A stretch of DNA of 43,854 bases from an uncultured Lachnospiraceae bacterium (GTDB lineage: Bacteria; Bacillota; Clostridia; Lachnospirales; Lachnospiraceae), in assembly GCA_947165275.1 (NCBI GenBank), contig CAMUZQ010000015.1, forward strand, positions 1 to 43,854. The letters are read 5' to 3'. Position 1 is the stretch's first letter. Every line of letters begins with the position of its first letter. Below are positions 37,020 through 43,770 of this stretch, piece after piece. A program made the translations under genes and the position numbers. The notes below the pieces were generated by a model. The model searched no databases and was not told where the DNA came from. It saw only the letters and a program-made list of their open reading frames with translations.

Positions 37020-38375
37020 ATGCTCATACCGGAAAATGTAAAATATATAATAAGCACTCTTCAGGGCGCAGGCTTCGAGGCATATGCCGTCGGGGGCTGC
37101 GTCCGTGACGTATTATTGGACAGAAAACCGGCGGACTGGGATGTTACGACAAATGCCGAGCCGCAGCAGGTGAAGAGGATATTCCGCAGGACCATAGATA
37201 CCGGTATAAAGCACGGCACCGTCACGGTCATGATGAATGATGAGGATCATGTATACAGGGGATATGAGATCACAACCTACCGGATAGACGGGGAATATGA
37301 GGATGGACGTCATCCCAGAGAGGTTACCTTCACAAAAAGCCTGCGGGAGGATCTGGAACGCCGTGATTTCACGATAAATGCCATGGCCTATAATGAGGAC
37401 AGCGGTCTGGTGGATGAATTCGACGGATGCGGGGATCTGAAAAAACGGGTGATAAGGGCAGTCGGGGATCCTTATGAGAGGTTTTCAGAGGATGCACTGC
37501 GTATCCTCAGGGCGTACAGATTTGCAGCCCAGCTTGGATTTGGCATAGATGCCCGGACGGAGGAGGCAGCGGTAAGTCTTCGTGAGAATCTGAAAAAGAT
37601 ATCTGCGGAGCGGATACAGGCGGAGTTTACAAAGCTTCTTTGTTCTCCTCATCCGGAAGTGATACTGGATATGTACAGAGCAGGCATAACCTCTGTTATA
37701 ATGCCGGAGTTTGACGTTTGTATGCGAATGGATCAGAAAAACAAGCACCACATTTACAATGTGGGTGAGCATACCATAAGAGCGCTTATGGTCAATGCAC
37801 AGTTTTCCGGAGTGGAATTCGAGCCGGATATTTTGAGATATATCAGATATGCTCTGTTATTCCATGATTTCGGAAAGCCTGAAGCGATGACTGAGGATGA
37901 AAACGGGGCCAGGCACTTTAAGGGCCATGCAGTCATTTCCGAGCGTATATCAAAGGAGATAATGAAACGGCTAAAGCTTGATAATGATACGATAAAAACC
38001 GTAGCCGCTCTTGTACGCTGGCATGACTACCGGCCTGAAGCCACTGAAAAAAACGTACGGCGGGCAATGAATAATATAGGACCGGAGATATACAGGCTTT
38101 TATTCCCCATAAGGATGGCAGATACTCTTGCCCAGTCTATGTACAAGCGGGAGAAGAAGCTGGCCTATGAAAAAGAGATAATGAAGCTCTACTCAAAGGT
38201 GATAGAGGCCGGAGATGCCGTAACCTTAAAGGATCTGGCCGTTACGGGAGAGGATCTTATCGGGCACGGTTACAAGCCCGGACCGGAGCTGGGAAAAAAA
38301 TTAAAGGAACTGCTGGAGCTGGTATTGGAAGATCCGGGATGCAACACGAAAGAATATCTTTTATCAAAAATATAA
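37020..38375 (+). CDS. cca: CCA-adding tRNA nucleotidyltransferase with HD domain
   Basis: This 451-residue class II CCA-adding enzyme builds or repairs the tRNA 3' CCA. The head domain has VGGCVRDVLL and the catalytic DWD (Asp39, Asp41), then DLERRDFTINAMAYN. The EDALRILRAYRFAAQLGF neck and an HD phosphohydrolase-type domain (about 255-370, HHIYNVGEHT ... LLFHDFGK) follow. I chose ATG 37020, the family start; no good ribosome binding site is visible. The three tRNAs at the window start have no encoded CCA, so this activity is essential here. Confidence 0.93.
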   Translation: MLIPENVKYIISTLQGAGFEAYAVGGCVRDVLLDRKPADWDVTTNAEPQQVKRIFRRTIDTGIKHGTVTVMMNDEDHVYRGYEITTYRIDGEYEDGRHPREVTFTKSLREDLERRDFTINAMAYNEDSGLVDEFDGCGDLKKRVIRAVGDPYERFSEDALRILRAYRFAAQLGFGIDARTEEAAVSLRENLKKISAERIQAEFTKLLCSPHPEVILDMYRAGITSVIMPEFDVCMRMDQKNKHHIYNVGEHTIRALMVNAQFSGVEFEPDILRYIRYALLFHDFGKPEAMTEDENGARHFKGHAVISERISKEIMKRLKLDNDTIKTVAALVRWHDYRPEATEKNVRRAMNNIGPEIYRLLFPIRMADTLAQSMYKREKKLAYEKEIMKLYSKVIEAGDAVTLKDLAVTGEDLIGHGYKPGPELGKKLKELLELVLEDPGCNTKEYLLSKI

Positions 38376-39988
38376 AAAAGCATCTGGCTTTGGCGGGCAT
38401 TATATGTGCGGCTTTTTTTGTCATGTCCTGCGGCAGCAGCAATGCCGGGATCCCGCAGCAGACAGTATCCGAACCTGTAGTGGAAAAGCTTGAATTCAGC
38501 GAGCCTGAAGCGCGGGATACGGCGGTCTTTCTCGAATATGAGGAAAGATTTGATGATGTAAAGCTTATGTCTGCCGACAATGGGAGGTCCTATACCGTCT
38601 CGATAAATAATCTTACGACCTTCGAGGATAACTACGGGAAGGTTTCCGTACCGGAGCTTTTTGAGACGGGAATGATCGTTGATGTGGATATTTCGGTTCA
38701 TTCAAGGACCCTTAAGTCCATGCGGCAGGATCCGGAGGCCTTTATCAGGCGTGATGTGACCGGATTCAGGATAAATCCGAACAGAGGGATTTTCAGCCTG
38801 GAGGACGGTACGAATCTGCATATCACAGAGAATACTCTGGTAATAAAAGGAGATAAAAGGGTTAAGATAACAGATATCTCTGACAGCGATGTATTATTGC
38901 TGCGCGGTATAGAACCCGAGCTTTACAGTATAAATATCCAGTCCGGCTACGGGCATCTGAGGATAAAGGGAGCTGAGTATTTCAAGGAAGGCTGGGTCAG
39001 TATAGCCGGCATGTTTAAGCCCGTATCTGAAGATATGCTGCTGGATGTGCCGGAGGGAGAATACGACCTTACGGTCACATATAAAGGCCAGGGCGGAACA
39101 AAGCATGTGGTTATAGAGCGCGGCAAAGAGGCGGTCGTTGATGTCTCTGACCTGAAGGGGGATCTGATCAAGACAGGAGAGATCATTTTCTCGATCCGTC
39201 CTCTGGAAGCAGAGGCTAAGGTAAAGATCAACGGAAAGACAGTGGATTACCTAAAGCCCGTAGAATTGGAATACGGAGTATATCAGCTTGAAGTGACAGC
39301 AGACGGTTATGTGCCCATAAAGGAGAAGATCGCAGTAGGCGCAGAGGTTGCAAATATTGAGATCGAGCTGGTGGAAAGCGAAGAATCCGCAGTATCCGCC
39401 AATAAATCATCGAGCAAGGCTCCGGCATCGTCGTCTTCATCGACATCGGCAAACAGGCTTCCGACAGACCTGACGGGAAACAGCTCTTCTTCCTCTGTCT
39501 GGGGCAGCGGTATAACTGTGCCTGCCGGAAGCTCCTCAGATATGTACGGCACGCCGGGGAGCGGTACGAGGACCGGAAGTGATATCGGCACAGGAACCGG
39601 TACAGGCACGGGCACAGGTACAGGTATAGGTACAGGTACAGGAACCGGCAGCTCAGGAAGCTCAACAAGCTCGAGCGCAAGATCGTCAAGCTCATCTGAC
39701 AGAGCTTCATCGGGCAGTATACCTGACAGTACGTCAGAGGCAGGACCGGTCCCATACGACTCATCCATAGTCTATGGAAGCCGCATATACATTGATGCAC
39801 CGGAAACAGCCGAGGTTTATTTTGACGGTATATATAAGGGCATAATCCCATGTTCTTTTGTTAAGGAGAGCGGCACACATGTGATCACCTTAAGAAAAGA
39901 CGGGTATGAAACAAGGACATTTACGATCACACTTGATACGAGCAAAGAAAATGAAACCTATTCCTTCTCGGCATTGCAGGAGGAGTAA
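38339..39988 (+). CDS. PEGA-domain lipoprotein with Gly-Thr repeat
   Basis: This 549-residue surface protein has a lipoprotein signal with lipobox FVMSC (Cys31). A beta-rich N-terminal domain (about 50-190) is followed by PEGA-type repeats (about 218-275, PEGEYDLTVTYKGQG; about 282-340, YGVYQLEVTADGYVPIKE). A Ser-rich linker (345-475) contains a Gly-Thr dipeptide run, and a last PEGA repeat (about 480-545, SGTHVITLRKDGYET) ends it. PEGA domains are found in surface-layer or wall-binding proteins of bacteria and archaea. ATG 38339 is inside the end of cca (37-bp overlap). Function is unknown. Confidence 0.85.
   Translation: MQHERISFIKNIKKHLALAGIICAAFFVMSCGSSNAGIPQQTVSEPVVEKLEFSEPEARDTAVFLEYEERFDDVKLMSADNGRSYTVSINNLTTFEDNYGKVSVPELFETGMIVDVDISVHSRTLKSMRQDPEAFIRRDVTGFRINPNRGIFSLEDGTNLHITENTLVIKGDKRVKITDISDSDVLLLRGIEPELYSINIQSGYGHLRIKGAEYFKEGWVSIAGMFKPVSEDMLLDVPEGEYDLTVTYKGQGGTKHVVIERGKEAVVDVSDLKGDLIKTGEIIFSIRPLEAEAKVKINGKTVDYLKPVELEYGVYQLEVTADGYVPIKEKIAVGAEVANIEIELVESEESAVSANKSSSKAPASSSSSTSANRLPTDLTGNSSSSSVWGSGITVPAGSSSDMYGTPGSGTRTGSDIGTGTGTGTGTGTGIGTGTGTGSSGSSTSSSARSSSSSDRASSGSIPDSTSEAGPVPYDSSIVYGSRIYIDAPETAEVYFDGIYKGIIPCSFVKESGTHVITLRKDGYETRTFTITLDTSKENETYSFSALQEE
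39585..39650 (+). repeat. Imperfect hexamer repeat coding for (Gly-Thr)n
   Basis: About eleven 6-base units of the form ggNacN (ggcaca, ggaacc, ggtaca) encode Gly-Thr pairs, with one Gly-Ile. Units vary at synonymous positions. Being a multiple of three, changes in copy number would alter linker length without frameshift. Confidence 0.85.
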
Positions 39989-42628: not shown

Positions 42629-42656
42629 TTGACTTGAGTATATAAAAGTATATAAT
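42629..42656 (+). promoter_or_regulatory. Promoter of the 52-codon ORF, overlapped by phased repeats
   Basis: TTGACT (42629-42634), a 16-base spacer and consensus TATAAT (42651-42656). The first two AGTATATA repeats lie in the spacer and -10. Transcription would start near 42663, giving a leader of about 30 bases with three more repeats and no Shine-Dalgarno site. Confidence 0.7.
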
Positions 42657-42693
42657 AAAACAAAAAGTATATAAGAGTATATAGAAGTATATA
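42637..42693 (+). repeat. Five AGTATATA repeats in helical phase
   Basis: Exact copies of AGTATATA start at 42637, 42647, 42666, 42676 and 42686. Spacings are 10, 19, 10 and 10 bases, so all lie on about the same face of the DNA. The array covers the promoter and runs to the base before the ATG at 42694. It looks like an operator for a cooperatively binding protein, perhaps the product of the full-length version of the ORF behind it. Confidence 0.85.
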
Positions 42694-42852
42694 ATGGATA
42701 AAAACCCGTTTGCCATTAACTTCGGTAAGGTGCCTTCCCAATATATAAGCCGGGATATAATCATCGGAGAGATCACACAGGATATGCTGGCTGATGAGAT
42801 CCAGAATCAGTGCTTACAGATGGCTGCAAGCCCTGAAAAGCCAGCCGGCTAA
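42694..42852 (+). pseudogene. 52-codon ORF, N-terminal remnant of a P-loop ATPase gene
   Basis: The product begins MDKNPFAINFGKVPSQYISR. The pattern NPF-x-INFGK-x-P-x-xYISR is the start I recall for a family of clostridial ATP-binding proteins of about 380-400 residues, in which a Walker A segment (GVRGSGKT) follows some 25 residues later. Here the likeness ends at about residue 26. The reading frame runs on with GEITQDMLADEIQNQ to a stop, with no Walker A. It is probably a deletion remnant, though a genuine short protein is possible. No ribosome binding site is present. Confidence 0.55.
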
Positions 42853-42882: not shown

Positions 42883-42919
42883 ATACGCTTGCAAAAGTAT
42901 TTTTGCAGGCGTATTCTTT
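42883..42919 (+). terminator. Terminator after the 52-codon ORF
   Basis: A 14-bp stem with one G:U pair (42883-42896 and 42901-42914) and a 4-base loop is followed by a short T-rich tctttac stretch. It lies about 30 bases past the stop. Confidence 0.75.
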
Positions 42920-43013
42920 ACATAAGCAGAAAATCTAAAGATCTGTTCATTCTATATTATTCTATTTCACGATTCGGCAGTTTCCTGCTTAATACATCTC
43001 TTTATTATTTACA

Positions 43014-43036
43014 GCAGGAGACGAAAACACTCCTGC
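43014..43036 (+). other. Hairpin in the leader of the Uma2 gene
   Basis: A 7-bp perfect inverted repeat (gcaggag at 43014-43020, ctcctgc at 43030-43036) with a 9-base loop sits 30 bases before the Uma2 start. No T run follows, so it is not a terminator. The rest of the region 42920-43065 is AT-rich without a clear promoter. The hairpin arm contains an AGGAG-like sequence that could compete with the true site at 43050. Confidence 0.5.
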
Positions 43037-43065
43037 GGAATTAACTATCCAAAGGAGGACAAAAT

Positions 43066-43770
43066 ATGGATAATGCACTTGCTACAAATTTGAATGGAGA
43101 TCACGGTATGGAAAATGAAGACAAATATTATTATGCGGCCGGCATAAGATTTGAAAAGGACAAGGAATATACAGTGGAGGATTATGATGCTCTGCCGGAG
43201 GGTGCCAGGGTAGAGCTTATAAACGGTGTATTCTATGAAATGTATCCTGACCCGGAGGCAGATCCGACAGAACGCTATGTTGTTTATCCGGAGTTTGACG
43301 GGTATGATGAGCTGTTGAAAGGGATGGCTGCGCCTTCAACAAGACATCAGAAAATACTGTTTCAGATATCAAGGAGAATAGGTAATTATATTGAGGAGAA
43401 AGGTGGAGATTGTGAGATATACCCCGCTCCTTTCGACGTGTGGCTGAAAAAGGAATCAAAAAACAAAGTACAACCGGACATATCCGTTATCTGCGATCCG
43501 GATAAGATAACAGATAAAGGCTGTGAAGGGGCTCCCGACTGGATCATAGAGATCGTATCCCCCGGACATCCTGAGAATGATTATATCCGAAAGCTCAATC
43601 TTTATCTTGATTCAGGAGTAAAGGAATATTGGATAGTAGATCCGATCAAGGATCATATAACCGTTTACAACTTTGAAGAAATCGGTATCTCTCCCGCTTA
43701 TTACACATTTGATGACACCGTCAAAGCAGGGATATATGATGATCTTGTCATAGATTTCAAGGAAATATAG
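43066..43770 (+). CDS. Uma2 family (DUF820) PD-(D/E)XK nuclease-like protein
   Basis: This is a 234-residue protein. The Uma2 restriction-endonuclease-like core is clear: Glu49 in ARVELINGVFYEM, STRHQKILFQISRRIGNYI, Asp138 in VQPDISVIC, Glu162 in IIEIVSPG, Lys176 in RKLNLYLDSGVKEYWIVDP. About 25 residues (60-85) are inserted between the first strand and the STRHQ helix, where relatives usually have a short loop. The biological role of Uma2 proteins is not established; they are often amplified in some genomes. ATG 43066 has a perfect aaaggagg. A second ATG at 43108 is also in frame. Confidence 0.9.
   Translation: MDNALATNLNGDHGMENEDKYYYAAGIRFEKDKEYTVEDYDALPEGARVELINGVFYEMYPDPEADPTERYVVYPEFDGYDELLKGMAAPSTRHQKILFQISRRIGNYIEEKGGDCEIYPAPFDVWLKKESKNKVQPDISVICDPDKITDKGCEGAPDWIIEIVSPGHPENDYIRKLNLYLDSGVKEYWIVDPIKDHITVYNFEEIGISPAYYTFDDTVKAGIYDDLVIDFKEI

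Follow-up and report, generated by a model that had tools for sequence, protein, structure and literature searches.

Why should five exact copies of one 8-bp word cover a promoter and run up to the start codon of an open reading frame (ORF) of 52 codons? The arrangement lies in a 43,854-nucleotide stretch of DNA from an uncultured Lachnospiraceae bacterium (contig CAMUZQ010000015.1); we refer to the whole of this stretch as the window, and window positions are positions within it. From comparison with relatives of the ORF, we consider it quite probable that the array is an auto-operator: the gene behind it, standing alone, would encode an Orc/Cdc6-like ATPase with a winged helix at its C-terminus, and this product would bind the array and repress the gene. 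In the window the gene is now broken.

The array and its counterparts in front of related genes

The five AGTATATA copies occupy positions 42637–42693 of the forward strand (units 1 to 5 at 42637–42644, 42647–42654, 42666–42673, 42676–42683 and 42686–42693), with steps of 10, 19, 10 and 10 bp between their starts. The fifth abuts the start codon of the 52-codon ORF (42694–42852, forward strand), and no clear ribosome-binding site is seen between this unit and the ATG. Unit 1 lies in the spacer of a TTGACT-16-TATAAT promoter (42629–42656, forward strand) and unit 2 overlaps its −10 element, so that the coordinates bear out the layout given in a preliminary description of the locus. We base the promoter call on its 11 of 12 matches to the consensus and on the promoters of relatives, in which this placement is typical, and not on site enrichment, as the promoter scan by itself is at chance level (two sites, versus 2.3 expected in shuffles). 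The array itself is not a product of chance. The word occurs eight times across the window against 1.67 expected, a count reached in none of 100 shuffles, and nowhere else in the window does a non-simple 8-mer reach five copies inside 60 bp. When the local 282 bp were shuffled 2000 times, the most frequent 8-mer had three copies at most; shuffling the whole window 20 times never produced a cluster of four.

Arrays of this kind recur upstream of related genes. From the retrieved loci we assembled 144 distinct family genes, of which 139 are complete and come with 100 bp or more of upstream sequence. Within 150 bp upstream, a single 7-mer is present in four or more exact copies in 94 of the 139, and in three or more in 119; among 287 other ORFs of the same loci, taken as controls, 14 have three copies and none has four. 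The steps from copy to copy (n=448) fall at 9–11 bp (210), 18–20 bp (167) and 28–30 bp (56). The expectation that full-length homologues would share the array therefore holds in that most of them have one; it fails for the word, which varies from gene to gene (AGTATATA, AGTATATC, ATTATATA, GTTATAAA, ACAGTAAA, ATGATAAA, GCGTAAA, AGTCTAAC, CTAATTAA and others).

The arrays also keep their position relative to the promoter. Across the 126 genes surveyed, for which two loci carrying two genes each were looked up via the locus name, a good −35 element is visible in 76; at least one unit overlaps the spacer or the −10 element in 64 of these, and in 46 the first unit starts 7–10 bp after the start of the −35. 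TTGAC is found at a distance of up to 14 bp ahead of unit 1 in 39 of the 126 genes, as against 198 of 7321 positions tested farther upstream. As would be expected of an autorepressor, the putative operators thus lie over the gene's own promoter.

Covariation of word and winged helix, and a proposed mechanism

The word varies with the recognition helix and wing of the protein encoded behind it. In an AlphaFold model of the family protein L035, made with 58 relatives (predicted local distance difference test score 94.4; predicted template modelling score 0.89), an AAA core is followed by a winged helix, in which residues 306–318 form a helix and residues 322–323 and 329–332 form strands; the numbering of L035 is one below that of L003, which places residues 307–313 in the recognition helix and residue 328 in the wing loop. 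Among the 124 genes that bear R, H, Q or Y at residue 328, 119 obey one rule: R, H or Q goes with A in the word, and Y with G or C. Similarity of the ATPase domain adds nothing to the prediction of the word once the winged helix has been accounted for. Because the word covaries with the recognition helix and the wing, the array is most likely bound by the encoded protein, and word and DNA-reading residues have most likely diversified together from gene to gene, each copy being self-addressed. The preliminary description had proposed an operator for a cooperative DNA-binding regulator, perhaps the ATPase itself; promoter overlap and covariation together make this the best reading of the sequences.

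Searches for phased pairs of words in 48 genomes of the genus point the same way. The pattern AGTATATA-NN-AGTATATA was found 15 times, 11 of them before family genes, three at the 52-codon ORF and one within an unrelated coding sequence, so that the search suggested in the preliminary description placed 14 of 15 pairs at family genes or their remnant. The pattern AACAGTAAA-NN-ACAGTAAA was found ten times: six before family genes, two in a solo array of genome G014, and one each in G064 and G069. In the last two (loci L224 = G064:C423 and L225 = G069:C367) a ACAGTAAA array forms the promoter of an orthologous small gene, presumably resembling a lasso-peptide B2 protein or maturation gene, which is followed by a nucleotidyltransferase-like gene. 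Self-address is thus the rule for the two words tested, with one likely case of borrowed control. We rejected a regulon, of which there is little sign, as the phased pairs of both words sit mostly before family genes. Several words are found within one genome, where copies differ; avoidance of equal words within a genome is not significant (one of 69 pairs identical, versus 1.9 expected).

Several observations weigh against this interpretation. By the strict count 20 of the 139 genes fall below three copies, a count that omits two-letter words and so hides several arrays made of A and T only (TTATAT), and five genes (L066, L153, L162, L164, L165) have no clear array. Before the covariation tests, 13 genes were excluded for a weak array or an unusual N-terminus, and kinship among the genes is only partly corrected for in these tests. 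In one of them, 12 of the top 20 pairs involve residues elsewhere than in the winged helix, and in another columns 59, 121 and 23 rank high; prediction of the word is weaker below 40% identity (0.515, against 0.441 at random). The arrays are not exclusive to the family, given that two of the ten AACAGTAAA pairs precede another gene family and two stand alone. Finally, steps of 10 and 19 bp drift relative to a 10.5-bp helix, so that a location on one face of the DNA is approximate.

We propose that each protomer would read one word of about 8 bp through its recognition helix and wing, and that protomers would sit side by side at steps of about 10 bp over the promoter, from the interval between −35 and −10 to the start codon. 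As steps of 10 and 19 bp fall slightly short of whole turns of 10.5 bp, the row would wind slowly round the DNA. The row is probably held together by its ATPase domains, in a manner that depends on ATP, and an occupied promoter would shut off the gene's own transcription; repression of the own promoter, cooperativity and a role of ATP are each probable. As word and reading residues diverge together, each copy would come to address itself.

Fold, known systems and rival explanations

Which known class, if any, does the protein belong to? Foldseek placed archaeal Cdc6/Orc1 structures at the top (1fnn, E 3e-12; 2qby, 1.8e-11), with a resistosome, an apoptosome, MalT (8bob) and Avs4 also matched, all at a template modelling (TM) score of about 0.5 and a root mean square deviation of 8–10 Å. 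By sequence no solved relative was credible, the one match being a doubtful ABC transporter at E 0.0017. The P-loop AAA core of Orc1/Cdc6 is present, G-x-RG-x-GKT and DE being invariant over 58 sequences, as is, in the model, the C-terminal winged helix (matches to MarR and HTH_24 are under the cut-off). Scores against the curated ORC/Cdc6 models are far below threshold (NF001624 of NCBIfam, 16.3 versus 354 bits; TIGR02928, 12.2 versus 181.3). The order of NTPase and winged helix is that of STAND proteins; superstructure repeats and a sensor part were not found, the chain of about 346 residues ending at the winged helix, and the Pfam model nSTAND_NTPase5 scored 20.4 and 24.2 against 34 bits. 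Matches to family libraries are weak or partial overall: L008 is above gathering for ATPase_2 (35.6 versus 33.2) and AAA_14, L003 and L013 are narrowly below, and the 52-codon ORF has no Pfam match. Since a defining feature of each class was looked for and not found, we assign the family to none of Orc1/Cdc6, STAND and iteron Rep.

For the proposed mechanism, archaeal Orc1-2 is the nearest working analogue. Orc1-2 of Saccharolobus islandicus has AAA+ and C-terminal winged-helix domains, acts as a transcription regulator and not as an initiator, leaves a footprint on a hexanucleotide of its own promoter, and exerts global control over many DNA-damage genes (PMC9738581). The ATPase family described here differs in having no regulon in sight, numerous copies, and for each copy its own word in long arrays with steps of about 10 bp. 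With the archaeal initiators (1fnn, 2qby, 1w5t) it shares AAA+ and winged-helix domains on DNA repeats, but at 13–16% identity, at the TM score given above and below the sequence-model cut-offs. The STAND regulator MalT is, as proposed here for the family, an oligomerising P-loop regulator that uses direct repeats at promoters. MalT has box arrays and ATP-driven assembly, activates other operons, and carries a large sensor part and another type of helix-turn-helix, whereas the protein here ends at the winged helix and its units cover its own −35 to −10. Copy-specific self-repression, as proposed here, would also resemble that of iteron Rep and RepA autorepressors; RepA is a nucleotide-binding protein giving copy-specific autorepression on its own operator (PMC4492784). 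Those are plasmid replication and partition genes with palindromic operators; ours are lone genes, mostly on contigs of chromosome size, with direct repeats.

The likeness to initiators raises the alternative that the repeats are iterons, that is, the origin or loading site of a small, now chromosomal replicon whose Orc/Cdc6-like initiator would be autoregulated through promoter overlap. The best solved folds, the iteron-like direct repeats with a copy-specific word beside an initiator-like gene, and distant relatives on 20 of 72,556 plasmid records all speak for it. We nevertheless regard it as unlikely, given the poor fit of the fold and ORC-model scores, the position of the units inside the promoter, and the setting of the genes, which stand alone amid unrelated neighbours (478 neighbour ORFs of the 144 genes form 397 clusters, the largest of six, with no conserved partner gene evident among them). 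Nor are there signs of a small replicon: contigs are long, none of 50,697 phage records contains a relative, and the plasmid relatives are distant ones. Sixteen of these 20 were examined (L232–L247, "ATP-binding proteins" of Actinobacteria, Lactobacillus and Bacillus); eight have arrays, defined as at least three copies of a 7-mer at 9–10-bp steps with at most one in 300 shuffles as good, and the rest do not. A viral origin was rejected, as IMG/VR added 35 pattern matches, none of them a relative, and no confirmed viral contig. Of 398 genomes sampled across the phylum, only three reached E ≤ 1e-40, and these three belong to the same family; the best 80 genome-contig loci listed come mainly from Lachnospiraceae, and a small number from other taxa, among them Streptococcus, Alloscardovia and Olsenella.

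Alternatively, the array may be an end or landing site for the movement of a single-gene mobile unit made of array and gene. Among close pairs (at least 84% DNA identity, self-overlaps of one contig left out), three with different flanks have in common only the stretch that runs from the array to roughly the stop codon: L079/L082 (94% from −125 to +8), L169/L170 (90% from −82) and L081/L086 (85% from −65); in L048/L068 the likeness ends at the stop codon, the upstream side being cut by a contig end. The solo ACAGTAAA array of G014 (L223 3286–3332, G014:C20) belongs here too: its locus is 86–91% identical to the L015 locus on both sides, with flanks as in L015 and L122, and keeps the array without the gene, 9 bp from the downstream flank; the known family copies of G014 have other words. 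Against movement, L015/L090 and L144/L145 share flanks between their members, the close pairs show no target duplication or clear terminal repeat, a family library search found no nuclease, integrase or transposase domain, and ordinary recombination with deletion could produce the same picture; we judge it distinctly unlikely. That a host factor or general AT-binding protein reads the array is very improbable: the words are AT-rich and a few arrays have no family gene behind them, but words differ among copies of one genome and track the encoded helix and wing. Chance AT-richness, in a region that is AT-rich and where the promoter scan is no help, deserves next to no credence in view of the shuffles and the control ORFs. 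Separately, L168/L135 and L128/L123 are two cases in which family genes from two genomes lie near shared neighbours and carry different words, L168 and L135 being oppositely oriented; these sites are possible hot spots.

Returning to the self-repressed ATPase gene, we raise, tentatively and with more doubt than conviction, the idea of an undescribed class: a single-gene self-addressed unit of Orc-like ATPase and private array, spreading and diverging as one piece, which would act to maintain itself, or in some hidden defence or replicon-like capacity, with no regulon. No description of such a family was found among the matches listed by a literature search, subscription papers lying outside its scope. 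More than 100 natural pairs of winged helix and word, each word present three to 11 times, would approach a readable DNA-recognition code, make base reading by wing and helix directly testable, and offer many potentially orthogonal operators. They also raise the question of why so many lone Orc-like ATPases, which seemingly regulate mainly themselves, are retained in bacteria of rumen and gut.

The truncated copy in the window

The 52-codon ORF had been suspected to be a stump, and so it proves: it matches the N-termini of AAA-winged-helix ATPases of about 350 residues from the same GTDB genus (65% to a copy at a contig edge, 51% to a full-length protein), with residues 1 to about 43 homologous and the remainder unrelated. 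It ends ahead of the relatives' Walker A motif, and contains neither Walker A, Walker B nor the winged helix. Matches to the stump occur in 25 of 61 same-genus genomes at E ≤ 1, a permissive threshold that leaves the weak matches doubtful; a family profile search at E ≤ 1e-10 matched 31 of 48 genomes of the genus, with at most 11 matches per genome, fragments included.

The profile search at this limit found no full-length copy in the window's own genome (assembly 96% complete, 153 contigs), and at E ≤ 5 the stump and two weak, unrelated places were all that appeared, with nothing else convincing. A second AGTATATA pair within 30 bp was also not found there: four matches overlap at the window site, and a backward control pattern gave two. 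The suggestion that the array acts as a solo operator for some other, full-length copy thus finds no support in the assembled genome, and we rejected an active solo operator in the window. Because that genome has no full-length copy and no second array, the window's copy is a relic of a family gene in which promoter and array were kept and the gene was cut to 52 codons. Together with the solo array of G014, it indicates that arrays can outlive their gene.

Matches wholly beyond the stump are no better than E 0.075; one relative (L039) aligns on past the stump's stop at 34% identity, which may reflect a decayed trace of the gene. In G020, exoA is closely followed by DNA resembling the leader of a Uma2-type gene (69% identity to window 42914–43050), with array and stump absent in between, an arrangement that fits the expectation for a site without the unit. 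In the window the Uma2-type gene itself (PF05685) lies at 43066–43770, behind that leader, and its coding part is matched in many genomes of the genus. Between stump and leader is an inverted repeat (42883–42914, 87.5% self-complementary); no terminator was called there. Elsewhere in the window, the ORF at 38339–39988 contains a long Gly-Thr dipeptide repeat within a serine-rich stretch.
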